Source: Cafeteria roenbergensis
Taxonomy: Eukaryota; Sar; Bigyra; Bicosoecida; Cafeteriaceae
Assembly (NCBI GenBank): GCA_008330645.1
Contig: VLTN01000003.1
Coordinates: 310,001-374,000, forward strand
Direction of reading: 5' to 3'
DNA length: 64,000 nt
In this document: piece by piece, positions 13,666 to 59,646 of the stretch
Position numbering within the stretch: position 1 is the stretch's first letter
How the letters are laid out: every line of letters starts with the position of its first letter
Notes under the pieces: generated by a model
The model's database searches: none
What the model was told of the DNA's origin: nothing
The model's input: the letters and a program-made list of their open reading frames with translations, nothing else
Translations under genes and position numbers: made by a program

Positions 13666-16600
13666 CTAGGGCGGGAGCGCCATTCTGGGACGCTTTGCTG
13701 GGCCCGCGCCGTCGCCCCGCCCAGCGCCAGCTTGAGCAGCGCCCCCCCCTGCCTTGAGCTCCCGCACGATGGCCTTGCACTCTGCCTCGAAACCCTGTCG
13801 CTTCGACCCCGCGAACATGGTGGCCACGTCGGCGAGGGCCAGAACGCGCTCCCGCATGGGCGCGACGACGGCCGGCCACGCCCCGCTGGCCTCCTCCTGG
13901 GCGGGAAGCACGCCAACGATGCGCGCCCACCGCCTCGCAACCTCGCCCGCTGACTGGCGCTGCGCCTCCGCGTCGCCCTCGGACGCGGCCGCGCGCTGCT
14001 TCCACTGCTTGATGGCCCCCAGGAGTGCCCCCATTCGCTCCCCGCACCGCTTGTCCGCCGCCCTGGCTGCGTCTCGCCTCCCGTCCGGGCCCGCCAGAAT
14101 CACGGCCCGCGTGCGGTTGATGGTCGCGAGCATCCTGGCGCGGCGCTCTGCCACCTCGCTGTCCGGCGAGGCGGAAGGCGCCTTGCCCCCCTCGCGCCCT
14201 CGCCCTGCCGAGGCCGCCGGAGCTTCGCCCGGGGCCCCAGTCGCGCCCGCGACGGCCCGGGGCCGGGCAACAGAGCCGAGGCGGCGATCCCGGTGGGGTG
14301 CTGCGGGCGAAGGCTCGGACACCATTGAGGCCTCCGCAATGCGGTCGTCGGTGCAGTCGCCGACGAGGGGCGCAGCGGGGCTGGAAGGCCCGCCCTCGCC
14401 CTCCATGGCGGCGAGCGCAGCCTTGGCCTGCGCCGTCTTGACTGCGTTCAGGACCCTGTCGCGGCGGCGGCGCCTCTCCTCCAGGTCCCTCTGACGCTGA
14501 AGCCGCTCGGCCGCCGCCCTGGCCTCGGACTCCTCCCCGCGGCGTTGCAGCTGCTGCAGCATCGCGGTCCCTCGCCCCAGCGTCGCGCGGCCGGTGACAC
14601 CGGCAACAGCCCCCGGTGGCGCGCCGGACCGTCCAAGGCGAAACGCAGCCCCCCGGCGAGCCCGGACCTCCGCTCCGCTCGCGGCTGCCCCCTCGCCCCC
14701 AGCTGCGCCACTGCCAGCGGAGGCGTCTCCCCGGAGCACGGACAGGAGCGTCGGATTCGATGGAGCGGCTTCGCCGCTGCGCGCATCCTCGGCGGCCCCG
14801 CCCGCTGGGGCCGCCGGCTGGCCGGCTGCTCCCGGCTGAGCGGCCGTGCCCTCTGACGCACGCATGTTCTGTTGCCGGCGGTAGTAGCTTGGACCCTCGA
14901 ACGCCTGGGACAGGCGCTCGTGCACTGGAGCGTCGCTTCTCTGGTTTCGGCCGTCCAGAAGTCGCTCCAGAGCTGCTTCGTCGTCTTCGTCGTCGGCGTC
15001 GTCGTCTTCGTCCCCCACCTCGGCTGGCGCCCCTTTGGTTCTGGCGTGCCCCGCCGACGCGCCGAATCCGTCCTGGGACCCGTGGGCAGAGAGCCCAGAG
15101 GCCAGCAGCCCCCCCACCATGCCGTGCACGCCTGCGCGGCTCTTCGATTGCGTCGCTGCCTCCTTGGCACGTGCGGCCGCGAAAAAGCCGCGCACCTGCG
15201 CCGTGACTGCGCCCCAGTTTGGCATGACGCGGGAGTAGGGGCGGAGCCACGCAGACAGGTGCTGCTGCGCGCGCTCGAACCGCTCGTCCAGGAGCAGGAT
15301 GGCGCCCCAGTCGCGGCGGTGACGAATGACTCGTCCTATGGCCTGGTTCACGGCTCGCGACGCCTGCTGCTGGTACCATGCCTCCCCAGTCAGCACCGCT
15401 GCTGTGGCAGGGGAAGACGGGAGCCTGGCCGTCGCCGCCGAGGCTGCCGTGGGCCCCGAGGGCCCGGCTGCCCCGGACTGCGTGAGCGTTGCCCCGCCAG
15501 GCGGCCCCGCCGCCGCCCCCGCCCCTCCTGCGGCCTTGACTGCGTCGTCCAGGTACTGCTGCTTGAGCACCACCTTCGTGTCGTGCCGCGGCGGGTACGG
15601 CAGCCCAGTGATGAGCACGGCCCGGCCGTGCCTGTCGCTGAAGTCGAGGCCCTCGCTGACCTTGCCCCGGCACACGGCAAAGAAGATGCCTCCCTTGCCG
15701 GACTCGATGGCGTCGCTGAACTCCTTCATCTGGGCGGCGAGCATGCCGGGGCTGCGGCTCTCCACAACAGCGTGCTTCAGCCCCGCGATTGACATCCACG
15801 TGCTCCCGCCGTTGTCCGCCTTCCAGAAGGAAACGCACTCGTCCATCACGGCGTACGACGGAAAGAACACGAGCATGCCATCCGGCACGAGCTTGGCAAG
15901 GTTGCGCACGGCCCCTCCCAGCTCCTGCTTGTACCCGTCCGTGGAGCGGTTGCGGAAGCTCGAATTGAGGGCGCGCCGCATCGGGCCTCGAGGGACCACC
16001 CCGACAAGGAGCTGCGACGAGTCCACGACGTGAGGGTTCTCCAGCCGCACGGGGAAGGGCGCCTGCAGCTCGGCCGCGTACGAGCTCATCGGGCTGAGCG
16101 TGCCGCTCGTCAGCACGACGGAGCGGACGCCAAGGGCCCGCAGCTCGCCGAACGCCACGCCTGGTGAGAAGCACCAGTAGCTCAACACCTTGTCCTGTGA
16201 CCCGTCGCCGTCGGCCCCCGCGGCGCCGGCAACGCCGCGCCGCTCCCGCCACTTCGCCGCACGGCTGTCCTTGTGGACCACCATCCGGAAGAACTGCGCG
16301 CTGGCAGCCTGCGCGACCCTCCGAGCCTCCGCTTGCGCCACGCTCGACTCGTCGCCGTGTTCGTCCCCGAGAGGACTGCGTCGCGCCGGAACACGAAGCG
16401 CGGCAGCCATCATCTCCTTGAGCGTCGTCAGCGCCAGGCCTCTTCCGTCGCCGCCCGCGCCGGACCTCCCTCCCAGCGACTCCCTCTCCATCAGCCACTC
16501 CGTGATGCCGTCAAAGAGCTCGCGGGTCTGGTCCCACGTCGATTCGTTCACGCCGAACCGGTCGAACAGCGCCACAAGCGCGCTGCCAGGGTGCACCGCC

Positions 16601-18111
16601 CACCCGCGCGGCCCGAGCGGTGTGCAGGCAACATCAGCCTCGATGGCCTGGATCACGCTCTTGAGGCGAAGGGCGAGGTCGGGAGACACCTTGGCCCCCT
16701 TGGCCGTGGCTGCAGCCCGCATGGCAGCGGCCCCTGCCCCGGCCACATCCGCAGCCCCGGGCGGTGCCCCCGTGGCGCCTGCCAGCACGCCCTCCAGGTA
16801 CGTCTGCACCTCACGCTGCGCGTTTGCAAAGTCCCGCGGCCCAAAATCGAACGAGGCGGCCTCCGAGGCCACGCCCTCCAAGTTGTGCGCCTCGTCCACG
16901 ACCACGATGGCGTCCTCCCAGTCGATCGAGAGAGACCGCCTGACCTCCGGGTCCACCAGGTAGTTGTACGGCACAAGCACCAGCTCCGACTCCAGCTGGC
17001 CGGCCCCGTCCCTCCCCGCAAAGTACGGGCACACCCCCTTGGACCTGCCCATCTCCGCCAGCTCGTCCACGTCAAGCAGGGGCGGGATGGGCGCGTCCTC
17101 GATGTCCGCCACGCCCTGCCCAGCCGCGTCTCCCGCGGCGGCGGCCTCCCCGCCGGCGCCGGACGACGGCATGCGGAGGGTGTTCCCCGCCCCCTTCACC
17201 GCTAGCGGCAGCTCGTGCACCGACCTCTTCTGCGCCAGCCAGTCCTCCAGCGTGTTGCGGGCAGAGCACTTGCGCTCGCGACAACGGGCGCGGCACGCGA
17301 ACCCCTGCTGCTGGCCCCGCAGCTTGGACACCTGCGGGTGCACGCACAGCTGCTCCCTGGACGCCAGGATGACGACCTTGGGGTGGTAGGCGCTTCGCTT
17401 CAGCTCGCGCACCACCTGTGAGAGCTGCGAGTGAGTGCGGGACGCGTACACCAGCTTCGGCGGCCGCATGGACCGCATCGCAGCCTCAACGAGGGGGTGA
17501 GAGAGCGTCGCCCCACCGCCGCCCGACGCCGCTGACGCTGCCATGGCCGCTGCCATCGCGCCCTCGCCGCCGGCCACCGCCGGCTCGTCGGCGTACTGGT
17601 ACCTCCCCACTCCGGGCAGCGAGAACCCGCCCCCCCTCAGCCCAGCAGTCTCCCGTGGAATCTCGGGGGCAGTGGGCGGCCGCATTCGGCCGATGGCCTG
17701 CAGCCGCAGGTCCAGCTCCGCAAGCGCGTCCTCCCGGACGCTGGCCTCTGTGGGCTTGCCTACGTGCTTTGCCACGAGCATGTCCAGCGCCTTGGCCACT
17801 TGAAGCCCGGCCGCATACGCGCCCTGCCAGGCCAGCGCCGAGCACAGCAAGCTGATGGTTTTGCCCGTCCCTGTAGGGGACTCGAGAAGCGCGTTGGTGC
17901 CGTCCTGCAAGCACTCCAGCACCTTTTCCATGTACACGCACTGGGCGTCGTACGGGGTAAAGGGAAACTCCACATCCACCCCGCGAAGCTCCAAGACCTG
18001 CGATCGGGGCAGAAGAGCACCGCTGCCGGCAGATTGGCGTTGGGGGCGTGCCGCGCGGACGAGCGCCTGGCGGCCGCGCATTTGAAACGTGCGCGCCGCC
18101 CTCACTGGCAT
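13666..18111 (-). CDS. RTEL1: RTEL1-like Fe-S DNA helicase
   Basis: Superfamily 2 (XPD/FANCJ group) 5'-3' helicase that unwinds D-loops, T-loops and G-quadruplex DNA at telomeres and forks. The frame is open over the whole span, but a 108-nt stop-free intron (17998-18105, GTGAGG to CGCAG) after a six-base first exon (ATG CCA) is inferred. The spliced start MPVLELRGVDVEFPFTPY closely matches animal RTEL1 (MP followed by the VDFPF motif); about 1,445 residues. Motifs: Walker A ESPTGTGKT (about residue 41), VYASRTHSQLSQVVREL, Fe-S cysteines (LCVH, ACRARC, KCSA, VCPYF), DEAH box VVVDEAHNLEG, EGLDFSDRHGRAVLITGLPY, and QAIGRVIRH near 886. The C-terminal 450 residues are low complexity with helical stretches and no clear harmonin-like or PIP element. 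If the intron is retained, 36 residues are added without a stop. Confidence 0.9.
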   Translation of the reverse strand: MPVRAARTFQMRGRQALVRAARPQRQSAGSGALLPRSQVLELRGVDVEFPFTPYDAQCVYMEKVLECLQDGTNALLESPTGTGKTISLLCSALAWQGAYAAGLQVAKALDMLVAKHVGKPTEASVREDALAELDLRLQAIGRMRPPTAPEIPRETAGLRGGGFSLPGVGRYQYADEPAVAGGEGAMAAAMAASAASGGGGATLSHPLVEAAMRSMRPPKLVYASRTHSQLSQVVRELKRSAYHPKVVILASREQLCVHPQVSKLRGQQQGFACRARCRERKCSARNTLEDWLAQKRSVHELPLAVKGAGNTLRMPSSGAGGEAAAAGDAAGQGVADIEDAPIPPLLDVDELAEMGRSKGVCPYFAGRDGAGQLESELVLVPYNYLVDPEVRRSLSIDWEDAIVVVDEAHNLEGVASEAASFDFGPRDFANAQREVQTYLEGVLAGATGAPPGAADVAGAGAAAMRAAATAKGAKVSPDLALRLKSVIQAIEADVACTPLGPRGWAVHPGSALVALFDRFGVNESTWDQTRELFDGITEWLMERESLGGRSGAGGDGRGLALTTLKEMMAAALRVPARRSPLGDEHGDESSVAQAEARRVAQAASAQFFRMVVHKDSRAAKWRERRGVAGAAGADGDGSQDKVLSYWCFSPGVAFGELRALGVRSVVLTSGTLSPMSSYAAELQAPFPVRLENPHVVDSSQLLVGVVPRGPMRRALNSSFRNRSTDGYKQELGGAVRNLAKLVPDGMLVFFPSYAVMDECVSFWKADNGGSTWMSIAGLKHAVVESRSPGMLAAQMKEFSDAIESGKGGIFFAVCRGKVSEGLDFSDRHGRAVLITGLPYPPRHDTKVVLKQQYLDDAVKAAGGAGAAAGPPGGATLTQSGAAGPSGPTAASAATARLPSSPATAAVLTGEAWYQQQASRAVNQAIGRVIRHRRDWGAILLLDERFERAQQHLSAWLRPYSRVMPNWGAVTAQVRGFFAAARAKEAATQSKSRAGVHGMVGGLLASGLSAHGSQDGFGASAGHARTKGAPAEVGDEDDDADDEDDEAALERLLDGRNQRSDAPVHERLSQAFEGPSYYRRQQNMRASEGTAAQPGAAGQPAAPAGGAAEDARSGEAAPSNPTLLSVLRGDASAGSGAAGGEGAAASGAEVRARRGAAFRLGRSGAPPGAVAGVTGRATLGRGTAMLQQLQRRGEESEARAAAERLQRQRDLEERRRRRDRVLNAVKTAQAKAALAAMEGEGGPSSPAAPLVGDCTDDRIAEASMVSEPSPAAPHRDRRLGSVARPRAVAGATGAPGEAPAASAGRGREGGKAPSASPDSEVAERRARMLATINRTRAVILAGPDGRRDAARAADKRCGERMGALLGAIKQWKQRAAASEGDAEAQRQSAGEVARRWARIVGVLPAQEEASGAWPAVVAPMRERVLALADVATMFAGSKRQGFEAECKAIVRELKAGGGAAQAGAGRGDGAGPAKRPRMALPP

Positions 18112-18466: not shown

Positions 18467-21400
18467 TCAGCTGGACGGCGCATCCACAAGCTTGTAGACC
18501 GCCCAGCGGCGGCTGTGCGCCTGGCCAGGCAATGGCCCATTGGGGCAAGCGCCATCAGCGCACCCGCATGCCGCAGCCGGCTCGTCAAGGCACGGGCTGC
18601 TGCATCCTGGTTCGCTGCCCGGGAGCGGTCGGCCGCGCAGCTGTCGGAAGGCGTAGGAGTAGCCCTTGCTGCCCTCGCGCGCCACCGCAAAGAACTCCAG
18701 CCCTTGCTCAAACGCACGCCTGCTGGCCAGAGCGACGTTTGCTCCGGCCGGGCCCTTGTTGTCGCGCTTGCCTTCGAACTGCGACGCTGAAGCCCAGCAT
18801 CCCAGGAACTGCAGGTTCTGCCTGCGAACCGACTCGCCGGGCAGGATCGCAGCGCTCGCGCCTGCGACGGGCTCCTCCTCGCCGGCCCGGCTGGGCTCAG
18901 GGCCAGTCTTGGGCGCCCTATAGCGCCGAGGCCGCTCGTGCGCCTGCCGGGGCCGCGCCGGCTCCGCCAGCCTTTCACGCGCTTGCGACTCGCTGACTGC
19001 GCGTGCGGCCGCGGCAACAGCCTCGTCGGCAAGCAGGCGCTGCTTCGCTTCCAATGCTGACGAGGGGGCCTCGGCCGTCGGCTGCCTGTTCGGCGGCTCG
19101 CGGGGCCGGTAGAGCCGGTAGAGCCCGAGCGGAGACGCGAACGCCAGCTCCAAGTGCTCCAGCGGCAGCTCTCGCAAGGCCCTGACGCGGGCGAGGGACT
19201 CCGTACCCGGGCGAGGCAAGCACGCCCGGGCGGACGGGTGGAGCTCGGAGTGCCCGTGGAGGCACATGCGGCAGAGGGCCGTGCCGAGCGCTGACTTGCC
19301 TCCAGGGCCCCAGGCGGACGCAGGGGCGGCGGTCAGGTTCGGCAGGAACCGTGCGGCTGCCGCGGCCATTGCCGGGAGCAGCTCGACGTCGCCGTTGGCC
19401 CCGCATCGCGCGAGGATCAGGTCCGCTCCAACGGCCCTTGCTGCAAGGCTCGCGTCGCGCTCGGATCCGATGAGCGCCACGGCCGCGAGGGACAGCGACG
19501 CATCGCCCGCCCGCGGCGCGCCTGTTGGGCCGCCAGACGCTGCTGCAGCGGTTGCTGTTGCAGGCGATGGCACGCCTGCAACTGCTGTTGCTGTTGCTGT
19601 TGCGGTTGCAGTTGATGTTGCTGTCGCTGTTGGGACTGTATGCATGCCGGTACCGCTTACAGCCACCGCGAGCTCCGCGTCACGACCCTGCCAGGACAGG
19701 ACCGCCGCCGAGGCGGGCGCATTGGCGCGTAGCCAAGCGCGAACTGCCGCCGCATCCGCCGCCTGCTCCGCGACGGAGCCTGAAGCAACGCCAGGCCTGG
19801 CCGGGGCCGCGGGACGCGCCACCAGCTGCGCGGCTGCGGCAGCAACCACCACAGCCACAGCCACAAGCGCGCGGCTGCGGTGCGGCGCAATCCCGCACCC
19901 CGTGCCCGCAGTGCTGCCCGTGCTGCAGCTGCTGCTGCTGCTGCCGGTGCTGCTGCTGACAGCTTCCATGGCGGACCGCCCGCGCGCTCGGCGCCTCCTC
20001 GGGGAGGCAGCAGGCACGTCAGACGAAGCCGCTGCGCCGCCCCCGCCGGCGCTGTGCCATCGAGCCGCCTCCCACAAAGCCGCATCCGCGCCTGCCGCTG
20101 CGACGATGCAGGCGAGACCCACCACCGTCCCACTGGCTCTGTCGCCTGTCGCACCCAGGGCCCCTGCTGCCCAGCCGAGGGCGGCAACGGGCACGAGTGC
20201 AGCGCCCGTGGCCTGTCTCGCAAGCCGTACTGCTCCTGCAGCGGCAAGCAGCAGCAGCGGTGCTGCCGCCAGCGCGTTCCGCCACCCGACCGCCCAAAGC
20301 ACGGGCGCGCTCCAGTCCCCGCCGCGCGCAGTGGCGGCCACTGCCCCCTCCAGCGTCTGCCACGCAGCCTGCGCGTCCGACCAGCTGTCACCGACCGACC
20401 CAGCCAGCGCGCCTCCCGCCAAAGAGCAAACCAACACGGCGACACCAGCGCGCGCTTTCGCCACAAGCGACGCTGCACGGCCCAAGGCCGCACGTGTGGT
20501 GGCGGCGGGCTGCCCGAGTGACGTATGCGAGCATTCTCCGCCTGGACGATGCAAAAGGGCCGCCAGATGGACGGCTGCAAACGAGGCGTGAAGCGCGAAC
20601 GCGGCCGGCCGAAGCAGGGCTTGGACTCCCGGGTCGGAACCGTCGACGGGAACGGCGACCATGAGAACCACGGTTGTTACGTGAAAAGCCGTCAGTGCGG
20701 CGACGAGCCGGCCCAGAGGCTGCTTGCCTTGGAGCGCAATCAGCGCGTGGAGCGGCGCTCCCCCTGTTGCCAGGCCCATGCCAGCGCTGGTTGAAGACAG
20801 TCCGGTCAGGGAGGCAGCGGAAAGCGCGGCCCAGGTAGCCGAGCCCGTGCGAACGCTCCGAGCCCAGGCCCAGAGACCAAACATGTGCGCAGCAGTCGAA
20901 GCGCCGTCTTGTGGTGAAGCCCAGTCCGCGCCGGCAGACGCTGGCGTCCACAAGGGCGCCACGGCGAACAGCAGGCCTGCCGCCAGGGCCAACGCTCGGT
21001 TGCCGGTGGCTTCAGCAGCGAGGGCGACGACGCCAAGCACTGCCAGGCAAGCGCAGGCTGCGACGAGCGCCGGGGGGCGCTCGAGGGCGGGCGCCTGCAG
21101 CGTCTCCCACAGGCCCCGAGTCACCCCTGGCGTCGGTGCAGCTCCACTTACGGCAAGCGGGGCTTTGTCGGCAACGTTCAGCAGGTGAATGTGATGCCCA
21201 GAGCGCAACGGCTGCCCATCGGCGGGAGTCTGCGGGAGGGGAGCGAGCGACGCCGCGCTGATTGTGCTGCCGCCGAGGTGCGCGACCGAGACCCAAGCGC
21301 TGGGCAGCGGTGTCCGCAAAGTGTCCCAGCTCAACTCACATCTCTAAATGTCGCCCCGCCCGTCAGTGAAGCAGGCTCGGGAAGCAGCCGCGCGGCCACC

Positions 21401-21498
21401 GCAACTGCGCAGCAGAGGGCAGCGACGAGCGCTCGCACCACGCCGAGCCTGCCCTCTGGGTGGGTCGCGCCGGTGGAGAGGGAAGGCCCGCCATCCAT
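18467..21498 (-). CDS. Degenerate STT3-like multipass membrane protein
   Basis: Looks like a divergent paralogue of STT3, the catalytic subunit of ER oligosaccharyltransferase. Exons 21340-21498 and 18467-21229 join in phase 0 (GTGAGT donor, CGCAG acceptor, 110-nt intron); about 973 residues. Exon 1 codes one membrane helix. Later segments align by eye with STT3: GNRALALAAGLLFAVAP then WARSVRTGSATWAALS (around 126-165), LRANAPASAAVLSW (about 551), VALIGSERDASLAARAV and LPLEHLELAFASPLGLYRL (about 743). The DXD of the first lumenal loop is absent, SVAGSYDNE is replaced by ASAGADWASPQD, and WWDYG by WQGRD, so glycosyl transfer is unlikely. A tail of about 200 residues after the STT3 end has a LGCW segment and a Cys-rich stretch near the C-terminus. 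A threonine/alanine-coding low-complexity insert lies near 19530-19640. Function unknown. Confidence 0.62.
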
Positions 21499-22020: not shown

Positions 22021-24351
22021 ATGGCAGACTCTCGGGTCAAGCTCGATGTCCGTGTGACACTGATGGAGTGCTCGGGGCTCCGCAAGGTGAGGCCGGCGAG
22101 CGCGCGCCCTAGGGGCGCCGGAGAAGGATCCAGGCAAGGGCGGAACTTTTGCTCCCCGGCTCCTGCTTGCTGCCTGCCGCGCCAACGACGCCCCGCCGGC
22201 GTTGAGGGACCCCGGGGCGTTCGGCTGAGTGCAACCACATGGAGCTAGGCGCTTTGTCGTGGGTGATCGAGCTGCCCGCGAACGCTCGCACGCCTCTCGG
22301 ACCCCGATGCACCGATGACGCCAGCTTGCGCTTGATCTGTTGCGCAGGCCGAGAAGGGCATGTTCGCTGGCAAGAACGACCCATACGTCAAGGTGTCCCT
22401 GCTCATCAACGACAAGAAGGAGGGCACGCGCATCTCGCCGGTCATCAACAACGGCGGCCGCGATCCTCGCTGGAACCCGCCTCACGGCTGGAAGGCCGCG
22501 ATCGAGACGCTTCAGCGCACGGACCCCAGCGACCGCATTGAGCTGCTCTTCGATGTGTTTGACAAGAACACCATGACTGCGGACACTCGGATCGGGGCTG
22601 TGTACGTCAACCTTGCGACCCTCGCGGCAGGGCGCGAGCGGCGGCAGTTCGAGCTGGAGCACGAGAGCAAGTCAGCCGGCAAGGTGGACGCCATCATCGA
22701 GCTGAACGTCCCCGCTTTTGCTCCAGGCGCGGACCCGGGTGCCGCTGACGCCGAGGCGGCCGCCAAGGCGGAGGCCGATGCCGCTGCCGAGGCGGCTGCC
22801 AAGGCAGAGGCCGATGCCGCTGCCGAGGCGGCTGCCAAGGCAGAGGCCGATGCCGCTGCCGAGGCGGCTGCCAAGGCAGAGGCCGATGCCGCAGCCGCAG
22901 CTGCTGCCAGCGCTGCGGCTGCTGCCGCGCCTTCGCCGGCACCGGCACCCGCTGGCGAGATCACCTGGGCCGGCGCGTCTCCTCCCATCGGCGGCGGGGC
23001 ACAGCCCGCGCCGGCGCCCGCACCCTCCGCTGGATACCCCGGCCACCACACTCCTGGATCTGGAAGCGGCGGCTACCCCGGCGGCTCTGGCGGCTACCCC
23101 GGCGGCTCCGGCGGCTACCCCGGCGGCTCCGGCGGCTACCCCGGCGGCTCCGGCGGCTACCCCGGCGGCTCCGGCGGCTACCCCGGCGGCTACGGCGGCC
23201 AGACTGCGGGTCTGACCCGCGTGGGCCCTCCCTCGGGCGGAGGCTACCCCGGATCAGGGCCCGGCGGCTACCCTGGCGCCCCGGCCCCAGCTCCCAGTCC
23301 CTATGAGGGCCTGACCCGCGTTGGAGCGCCATCTGGAGGTGGCTACCCGGCAAGCCACGGCCACCACGGCCACCACAGCGGAATGCCGGGCCTTCCAGGC
23401 ATGGGCATGATGGCCGGTATTCCCGGGATGCCGGGCCTTCCCGGAATGGGCGGCATGCCTGGCGCGGGCGCCTACGGAGCCTCGACCTACGCCGCCGCGC
23501 AGGGCACCGACTACGCCCGCGACGCCATGAGCGGCTTTGTGTCTGCGGATTCGATGCGCCCCGAGGGCGTGGCCAACGGCACCTTCGTGGCCGGGCGCAC
23601 GGTGCGCTTCCACACGGACGGCGGCCGCTACCTCGCCATCGACGACTCCTTCCGCCTCACGGAGCTGGACGTCGACACTGGCGACACTGCCTTCTGCCCG
23701 GTCCCGGGGCGCTTCATCCGCCTCCAGTCCAGCGAGGGCCACGGCCGGACCGTGAACCTGGGCAAGCCCGGGGAGGACTTTTCTGAGTTCCGTCTGGACC
23801 GCCAGTCGGAGGGCAACTGGGCGCTCTACTGCGAGGCGGCTCGCGGCTACTTTGGCTTCGACGACGCGGGCTACTGCGTAATCAAGCCTGCGCCGCACCC
23901 CATCCGCTTCGGCCTGATGTCCCGCCGCGGCGGCATGCAGGACATCCCAGACCTGCGCCACGTGTGCGCCGACTCCACGGTGTTGGTCATCAACGCCCTG
24001 AACGGGCACACGCTGGGCATGAACCCGCACAACGGCGCGGTCGGGGCCATGACCCGCACGTTCGACCCCTCGTCGCAGTTCAACGTGCGCATCACCCGCG
24101 AGGTCATGCTCCGGGCCGTGGTGCGCGGAGGGCCGGAAGGCCCTGGCTTCGTGCGGATCGGCAACCCGGAGGACCCGGCGTCGGTGTCTCACGTCCTGGA
24201 TGCACAAGGCCGCGGCGGGGTGGAGAGCGCGCTTGTCATCATCAAGCGCGAAGGCGGGCGGATGTCCTTCCAGGGCGTGCGCCCGGACAAGGGCCGCGTC
24301 CCCGTCTTCGTGCGTTCAGGGTCGGGCGGGATCGAGTTCTCGTTCGCCTGA
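22021..24351 (+). CDS. C2-domain protein with GGYPGGS repeats and C-terminal beta-trefoil-like domain
   Basis: Exon 1 (22021-22086) and exon 2 (22348-24351) join in phase 0 across a 261-nt intron (GTGAGG, CGCAG); about 689 residues. The N-terminal 130 residues form a C2 domain (LDVRVTLMECSGLRKAEKG, NDPYVKVSLL, ELLFDVFDKNTM), with several of the acidic residues expected of a calcium-dependent lipid-binding site. Four 12-residue AEADAAAEAAAK repeats (about 158-205) follow, then a Pro/Ala segment and six GGYPGGS repeats (about 263-304), then GMPG-rich sequence. From about residue 434 the protein looks like fascin-type beta-trefoil repeats (VRFHTDGGRYLAIDD; WALYCEAARGYFGFDDAG). A role linking membranes and cytoskeleton is a guess. 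AATAAA at 24509 lies 158 bp past the stop. Confidence 0.75.
22753..22896 (+). repeat. Four tandem 36-bp units in the C2 gene
   Basis: Nearly identical 36-nt units (first base at 22753, 22789, 22825 and 22861) code AEADAAAEAAAK. They probably form a charged Ala-rich helix spacer. Confidence 0.9.
23068..23193 (+). repeat. Six tandem 21-bp units coding GGYPGGS
   Basis: Six 21-nt units, nearly identical at the DNA level, code GGYPGGS (the last ends in Y). The flexible Gly/Tyr/Pro spacer resembles annexin- or prion-like linkers. Confidence 0.9.
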
Positions 24352-50874: not shown

Positions 50875-53393
50875 ATGAGCAGCCCGCCCTCAGCCGAGTG
50901 AGCCCATCGACCCCAATGCTAGGGGCCAAGGTCGCTACCGCCTGCCTCCCGCTTGGCCACGAGCGGGGCGGTTGTGGAGGAGTGTGTGCCGGATGCCTTT
51001 TGCTCACGGTCGCTCGCCCGAATGCCCTCCCGCGCGCGCGCAGGGGCGGCCTTGCCGACGATGACGAAGAACAGGTGGTGATGACAATGCAGCAGTTCGA
51101 GGAGTGAGTGGCCAGCTGTTGCGGCGCGCTGCTTGGGCTTGAAATCGCTGGCGAGGAGTCCCAACTGCGTGGTTTCTGCACCCGGCCAAGTTTGACTTGC
51201 AGCTGCGGGCACGGCGCCTCAAACGCGCCGGGATGTGCCCCGCCCGCCCGCCAGGCAAGCCTTTGCAATGCCCGGCGGCCTGCGCGTGCCCCTCTGCCCT
51301 CGCAGGATCCGGCGGAAGCTCTCGAAGCAGCAGCAGGTGATTCGCTCCCAGCGGGCAAAGCTCATGGAGCTGGCCGGCCAGCCAGCCAAGCAGCAGGCGC
51401 GCTTGAGGCGGGAGCAGCGCTACGAGGCCCTGCGCGCCAAGGTCAAGGCGATCGAGGCCGAGCGCGCGCTGCTCCTGGAGGAGGCGCTGCGAGGCGTGGG
51501 TTCGGGGACGGGCGCGGCAGGAAGCGCCGCGGCGCCGGCTGATTCGGCGCAGCTCGGCCTGCCGCCGCTCGCTGAAGACGACCTTGACGACAGCGAAGTG
51601 CTTGAGGAGGGTAGCATGAGCGCCCACGACGCTCAGTCGTTTGCAGGCGCGGCGGAGGCGGTCGAGCTGGGCGCGAGCGGTCGGGCCGCGGGGGCTGCCC
51701 GTGCTCGGGCTGCAGCGCAAGCGCCCGCCGGCGGACGAGACGAGGAGGAGCGCGCACACAAGGTGGGCGCGCTTGCGGTTGGGGGCGCACTGACGGCGGC
51801 TCGGGACGATCCCGCCCGCGCGCCCGCCAGGGGTTCCCGCGGCCCCGACGATGAGGCCGGAGCCGCGGCCCCAGCGCGCGACGAGGAGGGGAAACAGCCC
51901 TCAGGCACTGGCACGCACGAGGGCGCGGCGGGCGCGGTCGCGGGTTCCCCGGTCGCCTCGTCGGGTGTGGCTTCCGACTCTGGCGGTCACGAGGCGTCCG
52001 TGTCGTCGGCGGCTCCGGCTCCGGCGTCTCAAGCCGACGGTCTGCCTGCGGTCGCGAGCAAGGCGGCGGACAGCCTGTCGGGTGCCCCGTCCTCAGCCGC
52101 CGCCTCCGTCACCGGCTCCCCTGGCAGGCGCAGCTTGCTGGCGCTGCTTGCGCCGCGCCGCGCCCCCGCCCCCCCGCCGAGCCCCGGCCGCGCCCAGTCG
52201 GCCGCCGGCAACGCCCTGGCGTCCCGCGTGGGGGACCCGTCGCACTGGCGCCCGGTTTCCTCGTCCAAGCTGTGGGCGTGGGGCGGTGGGGCCGTGGCTC
52301 CGGGAAGGCCGTTCCCAGCGCCCGTGCCGCTGGGCCAGCTCGGCTGCCGGCGCATCGCAAGCGTCAGCGCTGCCTTCAGCCGGGCGGCTATCATCACCGA
52401 GACGGGGGACGTCTACATGTGGGAAAACCCGCTGTCAAGGCCGAGCGCAGCGTCGGTGGACGACGAGGCAAGGCGCATCCAGCAGTCGCGCCCCGACATC
52501 GTGGTGCTGCCGTCTGCAGCCTTGGCGCAGCCTCCTGCGATCGCAGACTCGAGCGCCGCTCGGGCCGCCAAGCCCGCTGCGCTCACCTCGGCCGATGCGG
52601 TTCGCATTGCCACCACCACGTCCAGATGGGTCCTGGACCACCTGCCGCCGCCAGACCCGCTTGTGGAGCTGTTTTTGTCACCAGCAACCCCAGCGCCCAA
52701 GCTGGCACACTCCCCAGGGCTGTACCGAGGCGGGGGCGGCACGCTCTCCCCCGGGGCAGGCGGGGTCTCGCGCTCCCACACTCGGGCGTCGGCATCTGCC
52801 GGCCGCAATGCGCTCCTGGGCTCTGCAAGCTCCGCCGGGTCGCCGTCCCCAGGGCACGGCGTCCGCCAGTGGTCCTCCTTCCGCTCGGTGTCGCCCTCCC
52901 GGTCGCCGGCCAAGGCCACCTACGCTGGCGAGGACGGTCCCCAGCCCGTCACTGAGGACTCACGGCTGCATTCCCGGGCGGCGGAGACCCACTCACGCCG
53001 AATGCGGTCCTGCCTCCACGCTGCGTCGGACCTGGTCCGAGTGGTGATGCGGGCTTCGTCGGCGCGGCACCCTCCGCCGTACCTCGAGCATCTCTCCATG
53101 GCCACGCTCAGCGCCGCCACGGAGAGCCTGCGAGCCTCCCTCTACTCGGCCCGCGCTGCCGTGCGCTCCATCCAGTCCGCGGGGGCGCGCCTCGAGGCGG
53201 GGCTTCGGAACGCTCCATCCAGAGGGGACGTCGCGCGAGGCGCCCCCCTCGCGTCGCCCTCGCCATCAACGCCCTCGCTGTCTCCCGCATCGCCGGCAGA
53301 GGAGCGCCGTCGCGCGTCAGCCGGCTCGCCAGGCCAGACTGGCACTGCTCCAGCCGAGCCGGCACGCCAGCCGACGCAGTCCCAGACCCTATC

Positions 53394-53432
<39 letters not shown>

Positions 53433-56400
53433 GCTGCCGCCCCCGTCTCAGGCGGAAGTTGCCCACCGGTGTGCGCTGGCCCGCGTGACTGCGCGAGCGG
53501 CAGTGGCGGCAGTGCTGTCCACCCAGCAGCTGCTCGAGGACTGCGGCATCGAAATGGGCTGCACTGGGCCGGGAAGCCCGCTCACGCCTTCCCGCTTCGC
53601 GACCCCGCCCCGCTCGCCAGGCCTCTCTGCGGCCGCAGTCGCAGCGCTCTCGCCGCTCTCGCCGCCTCGCAGGGCCGACGCCCCAGTCCGTCAGCGGTCC
53701 CTCCTCAGCGCGTCGGTGGCGCCAAGGGACTCAACGCTCCCTGCAGCATCGGCCGCGGCGTCAGGCGCTGTTGCTGGCGGCCGCCCCGCGGCCGGGCAGG
53801 GCGCCGTGGCGGCCGCGGCTGAGGCAGCGGCTGTGAGCTCGCGCACCCCTGCCGCCGATTCTGTCAGTGCTGCGCCCCCAGAGGCGGCTCGGGATGTGCT
53901 CGAGGGTGCTGGCGCTGCTGCTGCTGCTGCCGGCTCTGGCAGCAGCAGCCACCGCGGCGGCCCGAGCGCGGATGGCGGCGAAGGCTGGAGCAGCGGCGGC
54001 CGGCGAACGCCCAAGCCCGGACGGAGCGGTCCCGGGGGGCGGGTGGCAGAGCCATCCCCGCTCGGATCGCCAACGGGGGGCGGCACTGCGCGAGGAGGGC
54101 TGGCGAGCCCCGCGGCTGCAGGCAGGCGGCGGAGCGGTCCCGGCCGTGCTGGCGCTGCCGCTGGACCCACGCACGAGGAGGAGGAGGCGGCAGCGTGGGT
54201 TGTGCAGCGAGCTTCTGACGAGGCGTGGCGCCCCGGCGGTGCCGCCGTCCAGGCGCTGGCGAAGCTGCAGTCCGCAGCTGCCGAGGCGGAGGCCGCCGCT
54301 GCGTCGCTCTGCCGCGCCGTGTGGGCGATGCGGCAGACGGTGCGGAGAGCGCGCCGAGGCCCTGCGCTGCACCTTGTCCGGGGGCTGCTGCTGCATAGGG
54401 CCTTGCGGGGCCCCGCCGGCCGTGTGGTCCAGGTGGCCTGCGGCGAGCAGCACTGCCTTGCCCGCACAGCGGCTGGTGAGGTGTTCTCCTGGGGGTCGGG
54501 TCTGCATGGCCGGCTGGGGCACGGCCTGACCAGCGACGAGCCGTCCCCCCGGCTGGTGACCCGGCTGATACGGAACGGAGCGCGGGCGTCGTGGGTGGCC
54601 TGCGGGCAGCGGCACTCGGCCGCGGTGACTCTGGACGGCGGCCTGTACATGTGGGGGAGCGGCAAGCTGGGCAGGCTGGCGACCGACAAGCCGGGCGACC
54701 GCCGGTCGCCCACGCACGTTGCCGGGACGGGCGGAGGGGAGTACGACCCCTGGATGCCCGGATACCTCACGCCGCCCCCCCGCAAAGACGAAGTGTCCGC
54801 GACGGCCGGGGGCGGGGCGGGCGCTGCCGGCAGGACAGCGTCGGCCTCCAGCGCCTCGGGGACCGCTTCCGGCCCGGCCAAGGGGGGCAAGTCGACGTCC
54901 GGAGGGTGGATTGCTGGCCTGCCGTCGTGGATGGGCGGGTCGTCCAAGAGCAAGCGGCAGGATGACGGGTCCGCTGCGGCCAGCGACGCTGCTGAGGCAG
55001 CGGCGGCGGCGGCAGTGGCGGCTGCGGAGAAGGAGTGGTCGAAGGGGGTGCTGGTGTGGCGAGTGGCGTGCGGGAACATGCACACGGTGGCGGTTTCGCG
55101 AGACGGCAAGGTCTTCGCCTGGGGAGCGGCCGACGACGGTCAGACTGGCACGGGCTCCGACTCCCGGAGGACCGTCTACGTGCCTCGCCTCGTTCGCCTC
55201 CCCGATACGGGCTCGAGCCAGTCTCGCAGCAGGAGCGGCACCGACGCCAGCGCCACCGGGTCCCGCGTCTCCGCGCCCTTGTCCCCAGCCGGCCGGGCGG
55301 CGCTGGCCGACGGCCCTGCGATGGTCCTCGCGAAGGCAGCGCGCGCAAGCACCTCCGCGGCGATCCGCTGGTCCGAGTGGCGCCCGAAGAGGGGCGTCAC
55401 TGACGTCGCGTGCGGTGCCACGCACACCGTGGTGTCGCTGGTGGACGGCCGGTGCTTTGCCTGGGGCTCCGACGAGTACGGACAGGTGTCGGCCTCGCCC
55501 CTCCCGGCGCGCCAGGCTGGGCCTTCAGAGGCCGGCGGGCAGGCGCTGCCTCCGAACGGACACCGGCGGGTCATGTCACCGCTGGAGGTGCCCGTGTGCG
55601 CGCTGGAACAGGCAGCTGCGGGGCGCATGCAGGGCGCAACAGCTGGCGCCGTCAGCGTCGCGGCCGGAGACCACCACACGCTCGCGGTCATGGCGTCGGG
55701 AGCGGTGGTGGCGTGGGGCAGGGGCGACCGCGGACAGCTCGGCGGCGGGGCGTGTCCCCCAGCGTCAAGCCTTCTCGCTGGCCAGCCTGCTTCCACCGCT
55801 TCCCCGGCTCTGGCTGCGTCGCTCGCAAGCATGGCTCCTCTTCCCTGCTCCGTGATCCTTCCCGGAGGCGCGGCCGGAGCCGGCGCAGGAGCCGGAGCAG
55901 GGGCTGGGGCCGGGGCCGGAGCTGGGCCAACGGGCGGGTGGACCACCCCGGCGGGCGCGCACTCCAACGCCCACGCTGCTGCCTGGAGGTCAGCCACGGC
56001 CTTCCTCGCAAAGCTTCCGGCCGAGAACGCTGCCGCCGACCGCTCCCGCGCGCTCTCCGTCCACAGCGGGGGCGGCGCAGCGCCCACGACCTCCGCAAGC
56101 CCAGGGGCGGGACTCAACGGCGGCGCCCCCCAGCCGCCCGCTCGCGGCCCGCCCGGCATGCGTGGGGCTCCCCGCGGCCGCCGCGCCTCCTTGCTTGACA
56201 GCTCCAAACACGGCGACAGCGTGCGAGCCGCCGCGCTGAGCATGGGGGCCCAGCGCATCTGCGGCGCGCGCAGCCTCATGGCTGCCTGCTGCAACGGCGT
56301 GAGTCTCCTGCTGGAAGGCGCCGTGCCCGCCACCGGGTACCGCAGCGAGGCAAAGTCCACGTCCGTGATGCGCCACCAGCGACCGGGCACGCGCTCCCTG

Positions 56401-59400
56401 CTGCAGGGGGACAGCCACAAGCTCGACGCGGAGGATGCGGCCAAGGGCGACGCCCCAGCGGCCTGGAGCAAGTGCTCCGACGCGTCTCTCATCGCCGTCG
56501 AAGACGGCAGGATCGCGGGGAAGCTGGTGCTGTACGCCACGCCCTCCCGCATCCGCGAGGCCCTCGCGCCGGCCTTCGGAATCAGGCCCGAGGGCGTCAT
56601 CCGGCGGTCGCTCTCCGAGCTCGGAGGGTTTCCGCCGTCTGCCCGTCGCGTGCTGTGGCCGGCATTGGCGGGAAACCGCGCCCACGTCACGCCTGAGCTC
56701 TACCGCGAGGCGCTGCGGAGCGGAAGGGCCCTGGTGTCCGCGCTGCTGCGCTCGCAAGTGAGCGAGCACATCGGCAGGCTCCGCGGCCGGGCGGAGCGCA
56801 TCGTGTCGCGCGCCCGTGATGGGCAGTCGGTGAGCCAAATGTCTCTCTTTTCGCACAAGGACGAGCCGGCGGGGTCGGCCATATCCCAGGTGTCTGGAGC
56901 CCGGTGGGGGGGCGAAGGCCGCGTTGCGAGCTCGGCGCCAGGCGTGTCCTCCGAGCCCCTGGCTGCTGCAGCTGCTGCGGCCGAGGCGTCGGGCAGCCCG
57001 CGTGCTCGGCGGAGCGATGCTGGCACGCGGTCTCGGGGCGGCAGCCGTGGAGCGGGCGACACTCGCCCTCGAGGCGTCGCTGGCTGCAGCACGGCTTCGC
57101 TCATCGGGTCGTCGTTCGCGATCAGCGACATCGACACTGCGCTTGCTGCGGGCAGCGCGAGCGCCATAGCCGAGGCCGACGAAGGCGCGCAGTCGGCGCT
57201 CGGCTCGGGGCAGTCAAGCGCCTCCCAGTCGGGAACGAGCCGCGCCGGGGGCGCTGCGCCGGCAAGCCCGCCGTCTCACGGCGCAACCGCAGCAGGAGGC
57301 CCCCCGATGGCCACGGGCCGGCTGGAGGACGAGGGGGAGCAAGGCGGCAGCGGCGGGCGCGCGGCATCGGCGGCCGACCCGGCGGCGCCTGCGTCGGTGG
57401 CGTCTGCGGACGCGGCGATGACCGCGGCGGCGTCGATGCAATGGGCGCCGGGGGCCCGGCCCATCCCAGCTCACAGCTCTGCCGGGGACATCGGAGAGCC
57501 CACGCGGCCCATGGCTGTCCCGCGCCCGCGGGCGGCAGACGGCGCCCCCCCCGAGGGCAGCGACGCAAGCGGTGCCAGCGGCGCTGCTGGCGGGCTGGCT
57601 GCTGTTGGCCCAGCGGCCGTGCCGTCCGTCGCGGGGGCGACTGACGGCCGCGCGTCAGGTGCGAGGCCAGCTGCGCCCGCCGCCGCGCTGCCTTCGCCCT
57701 CCTCCCAGGCCGCAGCCCGCGCTCCTCCGGGCGTGGCGCCGATCCCAAGCTTGGCCGTGCGGGCCGGCATCAGCGTGCGCGCCCACACGGTGGAGGGGTC
57801 CCCGCTCCTCCGCTCTGCCGCGTCTCTCGGCGCCATCCCCGTCGCGCAAGGGAGCGGGCAGTCGCCGCACAGGCGGGCGGGGTCTGCGCCCCTCGCCGAC
57901 GGCGGCCAGCTCGCCGGCCCCGCCATAATCCAGGCGTCCCACTCCGGCCCGGCGGTGGCTGGGGACGCGGGAGCGTCGAGACCGAGGCTGGAGGCGCCGC
58001 TCGGCGCGTGGGCGGAGGCCTTCCTGCTGGGCGGGGACGACCCCACCTCGGCGGAGGCGGACGCCGCTGCCGCGATGGAGGCCTACTTTGAGGCGGACCC
58101 CAACACGGAGGGGTCGGGGGGCGACGGAGGAGGGAACCTTGCATTCCTCTTCGGGGACGACTCGTGGGACGAGCGGCCGCCAGCGGGCGGGGAGGGCGGG
58201 TCCTGCGCAGGGAGCGGCAGCGGCGGCGGAAGCAACGGCAGCCTTGGCGCCGACGCGCCGGACGGGTGGGCCGGGCTGCTGGGCGTGGCGCAGGCCACCC
58301 CGCTGGGGTACTCAGCCCGAATGGACCCTGCCGAGGCAGCGGGGGCACTGGCGACGATCAGCGGGGCCCTGGCCGGCCCGGCTGCGACCGCGGCTGCCGG
58401 TCCCAGCCTCGACCAGCGACGCCGCATCAAGGACGTTGCCACGCTGCTGCGAGACCTCAAGCGGACGCACTCTCGCATGCGTCTTCTGGACAGCGGCGGG
58501 CCGCTGCGGCGAGACCTCGTCGAGGTGTTCGTCGCCCTCATCGGCGTCCTGACCGACCTCGGGTACTCCCAGGCCATGGGCCTGCAGGTGACGCCCATCC
58601 TGCTCCACACGGGCAGCCCCTATCTCACCTTTCAGGTGTACCTCAACCTGCTGCTGCGCCCCGAAATGCGGCTCATCTTCAGGGGCGAGGGCTCCACGAG
58701 CAGCCCCGAGTCGCGTGCCCATCAGCTGTACATCAACCGCCGGCTGGGGAAGATCTGCCTCAGGGGCGTGCAGAGCCAGGGCCTCTCGTGCTCGGACAGC
58801 GACGGCGGGCTGTACGTCACGTCCTGGTTCTCAGGCTTCTTCACGAAGCAGCTTCCCCTCGACCAGGCGTGCGACGTGATGGACTTCTACCTGGTGCACG
58901 GCGCGCAGGCGGTGGTGGGCGTGGTTGTGGCGTGTCACAAGCTGCTGCAGCCTGTGCTGTGCGAGATCTCGGCGCAGCGGGTCGCGGAGGGCGGCGCGAC
59001 GCTTGCCGAGGCGCGGGACGTGGCCGAGGGCGGGGTGCTCCCTGAGGTGCTGAACGAGACGTTTTTCGCGTCAGACGGCGCTCCTGCGGTTTGGGCCAAG
59101 GCGCTTGCCGGGAAGCGAATCGTCAAGGAGGCTGCCAAGGTCATGGAGGACCTCCCGGATGACGTCATCGGGGACCTGGACAAGCTGCTCAACGACCCGT
59201 TCCTCCTGAACCCGGGGGTCCGCCCGGAGGGGCTGGGCCCGCTGGAGTCGGCGCCCTTCGTTGGGACCAAGACAAGCGACGGCGGCATCACAGGGCCCCG
59301 TGGCCGCATGTCCGACCTCGGCCTGCAGCTGCGCGACCAGGCCTTGGGAGGCGGGGGGGGCATGTGGCGTGGCGGCAGCACGGGGCGCCGGTCGGCCCCG

Positions 59401-59646
59401 CCCCCGGGGGCCGCTGCCTCCGTGGCGAGCAACTCCGCGTCTGCTGAGGTGTACGCCAGCGGGCACCTCCACGACGATGACGATGACGGCGAAGGCGACG
59501 ACGCGGGCTCTGCCGGAGCGAGCGAAGGCGGAATCGACGCGCTCCTGCCGCCTGCGAATGCACCAGGCAAGTCTTCGTCGGCTGTGCCCGCAAGCGCGGC
59601 CCAGCGGCGAACGCAAAGCCGTGCTGATATGTTTCAAGATTTTTGA
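50875..59646 (+). CDS. RCC1-repeat / TBC (Rab-GAP) fusion protein
   Basis: Three exons: 50875-50897 (MSSPPSA plus two bases), 51044-51103 and 51306-59646, joined with matching phase 2; donors GTGAGC/GTGAGT, acceptors CGCAG; about 2,807 residues. The spliced start reads MSSPPSAEGGLADDDEEQVV and runs into a coiled coil (about 28-90). RCC1/ATS1-type blades are at about 345-400 (SSKLWAWGGG; DVYMW) and 1065-1513 (VACGEQHCLARTAAGEVFSW; VACGNMHTVAVSRDGKVFAW; VAAGDHHTLAVMASGAVVAW). A 12-residue poly-Gln is near 724. The TBC domain begins at about 1792 (LSELGGFPPSARRVLWPALA), is interrupted by about 570 disordered residues, and resumes at about 2399-2580. Both catalytic fingers look intact: arginine finger in LLRDLKRTH and glutamine finger GYSQAMG. 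It should act as a Rab GAP; the propeller partner is unknown. Confidence 0.82.
53395..53430 (+). repeat. (CAG)12 tract coding poly-Gln
   Basis: Twelve perfect CAG codons in the linker between RCC1 blades of the RCC1-TBC gene. Perfect codon purity suggests recent slippage. Confidence 0.95.

Follow-up and report, generated by a model that had tools for sequence, protein, structure and literature searches.

A remote STT3 homolog in Cafeteria roenbergensis that lacks key oligosaccharyltransferase motifs

A gene on the minus strand of a 64,000-nucleotide stretch of the Cafeteria roenbergensis genome (hereafter the window) encodes what is almost certainly a remote homolog of STT3, the catalytic heart of N-glycosylation. 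Judged by alignment, the protein appears to keep the layout of STT3 but not the fixed residues of the enzyme, and it is very probably unable to act as a canonical N-glycosylation oligosaccharyltransferase (OST). The reading that we favor, with some reserve, is that of a non-catalytic STT3 paralog, presumably located in the endoplasmic reticulum membrane and kept under weak constraint.

Gene structure and reading frame

The gene consists of two exons, and the features discussed below are as follows (all on the minus strand).

21498-18467, minus strand: whole gene; the spliced product has 973 amino acids
21340..21498, minus strand: exon 1 (aa 1-53), with the N-terminus, TM1 and the conserved arginine R37, ending on residue D53; defined by translation and the GTGAGT donor
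21230..21339, minus strand: 110-nt GT-AG intron (GTGAGT...CCCGCAG); the spliced model outperforms read-through
18467..21229, minus strand: exon 2 (aa 54-973 plus stop), an open frame with no internal stop
20561..21034, minus strand: best-supported STT3 homology, aa 119-276, approximately TM3-TM7; from hhalign, and from phmmer to STT3B aa 123-270
19679..19693, minus strand: WQGRD in place of WWDYG, aa 566-570; WLRANAPASAAVLSWQGRD aligns ungapped with WLRDNTPEDSRVMAWWDYG of the genome's own STT3
19502..19639, minus strand: Thr/Ala low-complexity stretch, aa 584-629, at about the place of the STT3 TTIADGNTWN loop; from translation and alignment
19085..19162, minus strand: end of the STT3-like part, aa 743-768 (LEHLELAF...YRPREPPNR); weak but colinear phmmer match to STT3B aa 748-797 (6.6 bits)
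18470..18847, minus strand: Cys-containing tail, aa 848-973; nothing of note matched in Pfam, NCBIfam or the PDB

The start codon lies at 21498 in the context GCGGCCATGG. A sequence-only reading of this DNA had proposed the same gene coordinates and a 110-nt intron, and both are correct; the intron lies at 21339-21230. Between 18467 and 21343 the gene frame contains no stop other than the terminal one, while the other five frames contain 7, 9, 10, 11 and 11. When neutral point changes were simulated in exon 2, five of 60 copies were free of stops at 90% identity; of the 60 copies made at every lower level (80, 70, 60, 50, 40 and 30% identity), none was. We conclude that the gene did not die long ago.

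Homology to STT3

A phmmer search of 177,635 distinct PDB sequences gave four matches at E≤1, all of them STT3A or STT3B; the best is an STT3B (E 2.6e-7), followed by three STT3A sequences (0.00045-0.00096). With hhalign, aa 119-276 match an STT3/AglB profile with a score of 67.6 (Prob 93.7). This profile was built from nine sequences: the genome's own intact STT3, yeast pieces, six archaeal AglB proteins and one OST from a viral contig. Eight shuffles of the protein stayed at 12.2-16.8, and reversing it gave 16.1. Among 167 open reading frames of the window (at least 200 aa, cut at 1500 aa) the protein ranks first at 67.8, with the runner-up at 23.1. Likewise, 110 frames from prokaryotic and viral loci separate into 15 of OST type that score 168-1535 (six bacterial ones, 168-246) and 95 others that reach at most 24.6. 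The multi-TM control within this set is small, as three of the 95 have at least four TM segments (scores 20.2, 17.7 and 14.9).

Pairwise comparisons place the matching segments in the same order. BLASTP, with E-values that refer to the nine-sequence set, aligns yeast pieces with aa 59-264 (E 0.006) and aa 545-573 (E 9.6), and the genome's own STT3 with aa 160-277 (E 0.12) and aa 523-574 (E 0.20); both pairs are colinear. A phmmer comparison with the nine OST sequences, at the same database size, lists the yeast pieces alone (E 4.3). Block spacing is nearly equal as well: VRSLRT at 178 in the own STT3 corresponds to ARSVRT at 176, and LQVPVVG at 247 to VAVPVDG at 244.

The blocks on which the initial assignment had been based, namely ATGNRALALAAGLL, LWAWARSVRTGS, VRAWLRANAPASAAVLSWQGRD, AAVALIGSERD and LEHLELAFASPLGLYRLY, are all present. 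The further claim that STT3 can be aligned along the whole protein holds in part. Besides aa 119-276, profile support extends to aa 540-680, which alone score 25.6 against 16.3 or less for 20 shuffles. However, aa 1-118 (18.3; shuffles ≤18.8) and aa 690-800 (12.1; shuffles ≤18.6) are placed by colinearity. So are aa 277-538, which have no support of their own because the match obtained with aa 277-560 (29.9) falls at aa 539-559. The middle segment and both ends of the protein thus appear to be located by position and colinearity.

In the Pfam comparison that had been proposed as a check, the STT3 profile does not detect the protein: PF02516 was found neither with the whole sequence nor with three pieces of it at E≤10, a setting at which the HMMER filters drop most matches above ~0.1. 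The gene is absent from the PF02516 matches in its own genome, and it was not returned when that genome was searched with the intact STT3. No other membrane family was hit in its stead. Identity to STT3 is ~20%, and ten of the 33 columns that are invariant among the nine OSTs are kept, while six shuffles keep 7-13.

Loss of catalytic motifs

Catalysis by OSTs involves the DXD, DNE, SVxEH, WWDYG and DXXK motifs, of which WWDYG binds the acceptor. The roles of WWDYG and DXXK are stated in PMC10141488. The genome's intact STT3 carries EFDPYF, YDNE, SVAEHQ, AWWDYG and DLAK, and the corresponding places of the divergent protein read FRDTPADG, SPQDGAS, AVAATARGG, SWQGRD and DVEL. An alignment-independent scan found no WW, DNE, D.D or D..K anywhere in the 973 residues; it found one ExD (aa 643), one SVxE (aa 538) and an EH at aa 744.

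Two of the three motif losses proposed from the letters alone are borne out. WWDYG is altered to WQGRD in a protein that has no WW, and at the place of SVAG.YDNE the acidic residues are changed (ASAGADWASPQDGAS), and the protein contains neither DNE nor D.D. The DXXK motif is gone as well, DVEL standing opposite DLAK. At the position of the EL5 SVxEHQ motif, located by spacing, the protein has AVAATARGG, and the SVxE and EH that it does contain lie nowhere near. The third proposed loss, that of the first-loop DXD, was put too strongly. Although no D.D exists and MAFFT places a gap at the first-loop acid, calling the motif missing is unsafe because D53 stands near the expected place: this residue, at the splice site, lies 16 positions after R37, and the first-loop aspartate of the own STT3, D42, lies 15 after R27.

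Membrane topology and predicted fold

A catalytic OST subunit has a GT-C core of 13 TM helices and a mixed luminal domain. A crude hydropathy scan gives ten peaks for the divergent protein and 11 for the own STT3, and in both a polar, Ser-rich linker precedes the last TM peak. AlphaFold2 models have a mean pLDDT of 39.5 with an OST alignment and 39.1 from the single sequence. For the alignment-guided model (pLDDT 39.5), whose alignment consisted of OST rows, the 12 best Foldseek matches are STT3 or AglB, a result that we do not count because the alignment itself supplied it; the single-sequence model returns no STT3 or AglB and one irrelevant match.

The C-terminal tail

Beyond aa ~770 the protein continues with a charged stretch and then the last block, aa 848-973. 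This is the extra Cys-containing tail that had been pointed out, and it holds six cysteines, at aa 864, 929, 933, 941, 943 and 948. A comparison with Pfam gave one match at chance level (E 0.24), and comparisons with NCBIfam and the PDB gave none, so that no lectin or other domain was recognized there. No relatives of the tail or of exon 2 were found in viral contigs. Similar “LGC...RRWAVY” tails may occur in STT3 proteins of other stramenopiles.

Searching the tail against its own genome returned four loci besides itself (E 1.5e-4, 0.007, 0.39 and 0.64). We considered these as possible relatives and read them instead as compositional, because BLASTP finds short matches in which the cysteine pattern is not kept. 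The best of the four lies on contig C11, near 166086, in a frame that runs for 13,674 codons without a stop; the part of this frame that was examined matches VPS13_M below threshold (29.6 bits, where the cut-off is 50; E 2.7e-7).

Genome context

Searches of the genome covered 36,303,456 bases in 167 contigs. One intact STT3, the second copy that had been suggested as something to look for, was found; it lies on contig C88 and encodes 802 aa; together with homology above chance, it supports the description of the divergent gene as an STT3 paralog. An OST48-type gene lies on contig C7 (E 6.8e-18). Given the intact STT3 and this gene, a multi-subunit OST is likely in this genome. Two adjacent matches to the OST3/OST6 profile (C53:185357-186233) were set aside as evidence for OST, as the adjoining stretches may belong to a single two-domain protein of the thioredoxin/PDI kind. 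Searches for a second copy of the divergent gene with aa 1-450 and with the luminal part, in which the best candidates were scored, returned the gene itself alone.

The flanking genes apparently are unrelated to the STT3-like gene. They encode an RTEL1-type helicase (13669-17991, minus strand; Helicase_C_2, DEAD_2 and ARCH_RTEL1) and a C2-domain protein whose repeat stretches are rich in Ala/Glu and in Gly/Tyr/Pro (22336-24348, plus strand). Elsewhere in the window, an open frame of 2,815 codons (51196-59640, plus strand) combines RCC1 repeats with a Rab-GAP TBC domain. The organism is a heterotrophic stramenopile, and a genome search for chlorophyll-binding proteins found none.

Alternative explanations

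The divergent gene could be a second STT3 isoform that evolves fast because selection on it is relaxed, heading for loss and having little or no function, an explanation that we consider rather unlikely. Its base composition also fits this explanation. The G+C content at codon positions 1, 2 and 3 is 0.745, 0.662 and 0.737 in exon 2, compared to 0.599, 0.484 and 0.949 in exon 2 of the intact STT3 and 0.734, 0.553 and 0.85 in the adjacent helicase frame. Thus, third positions of the gene are near local non-coding DNA (0.68-0.70) and far from those of the other two genes, in a window whose G+C content is 68-75% per 4-kb block. Moreover, alanine makes up 24.5% of the protein, the luminal part contains the Thr/Ala-repeat stretch, and two STT3 isoforms are reported for most oomycetes, which are stramenopiles too (PMC13117519 and PMC10141488). 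However, the gene retains 973 codons with no stop, whereas exon 2 gains about four stops when its drift to 80% identity is simulated. The likeness to STT3 is also so low that selection must long have kept the frame open.

We regard as unlikely an active GT-C enzyme that uses another donor or acceptor and whose catalytic acids have moved, for example to D53, D57 or D161. GT-C enzymes tolerate varied first-loop acids, the position of D53 relative to R37 resembles that of D42 in the own STT3, and R417 aligns with a TM arginine that is invariant in OSTs. Against this stand the absence of DXD, DNE, WW and D..K from the entire protein, with a sole ExD at aa 643, and the fact that single-residue matches of this kind are within the range of the shuffles.

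It is quite improbable that the gene model or the assembly conceals catalytic residues behind a missed exon or a frameshift. The first loop falls exactly at the intron, so the D53 region depends on the splice model, and the intron read in the frame of exon 2 is faintly reminiscent of a first loop (CELSWDTLRT...AWVSVAHLGGSTI). Nevertheless, the spliced model aligns better both with the own STT3 (score 11.5, z 4.1, versus -3.5, z 3.5, for read-through) and with yeast STT3 (z 3.1 versus 1.5), and we rejected the intron as coding sequence because of these scores. The WQGRD block, moreover, lies within one exon behind an ungapped, conserved lead-in. The first loop of the intact STT3 is likewise interrupted by an intron, of 278 nt. 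That intron (1228-1505 of its locus) is made up of near-repeats, CCCACCACG...CCCAGCGCGCCCC, and a stop-free frame passes through it.

Finally, the extreme, Ala-rich and hydrophobic composition and the missing Pfam match might point to a chance resemblance to STT3, but this is hardly credible given that the shuffles, the reversed protein, the 166 other window frames and the 95 non-OST frames (three with at least four TM segments) all score 24.6 or less against 67.6.

A possible non-catalytic role

We return to the non-catalytic paralog that we favor. Its starting point is an STT3 homolog with an open reading frame, in which block order and near-equal spacing are kept, WWDYG is lost, and DNE, DXD and DXXK are absent, in a genome that also has one intact STT3 and an OST48-type gene. 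In such a protein a helix bundle of the GT-C type would still fold, as would the luminal domain, and it may serve as a non-catalytic partner (a scaffold, decoy or regulator) of OST, of the translocon or of the dolichol-linked glycan. The disulfide-capable tail could then provide an added luminal contact surface. The low GC3 and the GC-drifted composition of the gene suggest low expression or weak constraint. That the gene is retained for a non-catalytic role of this kind seems to us somewhat better than an even proposition. More tentatively, a dead STT3 beside a working one might be a dedicated non-enzymatic subunit whose new disulfide-capable luminal domain recognizes glycan carriers or acceptors, or positions them; the “lectin-like” reader of glycan carriers once suggested for this gene is a guess.

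Within the open-access full-text literature, where most subscription journals are missing, our searches found no report of a catalytically dead STT3 paralog. If true, a retained STT3 that does not catalyze would separate the enzymatic role of STT3 from a structural role at the translocon, and OST would join the enzyme families that have pseudoenzyme paralogs. The proposal is testable in this organism, for which PMC6972860 describes four sequenced strains (BVI, E4-10P, Cflag and RCC970-E3).

Comparison with known systems

Like eukaryotic STT3A and STT3B (PF02516), the protein has the same block order and spacing from TM1 to the luminal part, with homology at aa 119-276. Unlike them, it has no WWDYG, DXXK, DNE or DXD and no SVxEH at the EL5 place, carries a low-complexity stretch at approximately the position of TTIADGNTWN and ~200 extra residues that end in the Cys tail, and escapes detection by Pfam. 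Archaeal AglB proteins (L010-L015) and the OST of a viral contig (L024) share 15-20% identity with exon 2 when aligned with it, although AWWDYG is present in all seven and absent from the C. roenbergensis protein.

STT3 paralogs occur in other eukaryotes, according to PMC4973528 and PMC7050244. A comparable arrangement is the STT3A/STT3B pair of oomycetes (Phytophthora), which likewise represents two STT3 genes in a stramenopile. In contrast to the divergent protein, oomycete STT3B has both WWDYG and DXXK in 733-735 aa, and its deletion alters glycoprotein content or profile, as described in PMC13117519 and PMC10141488.
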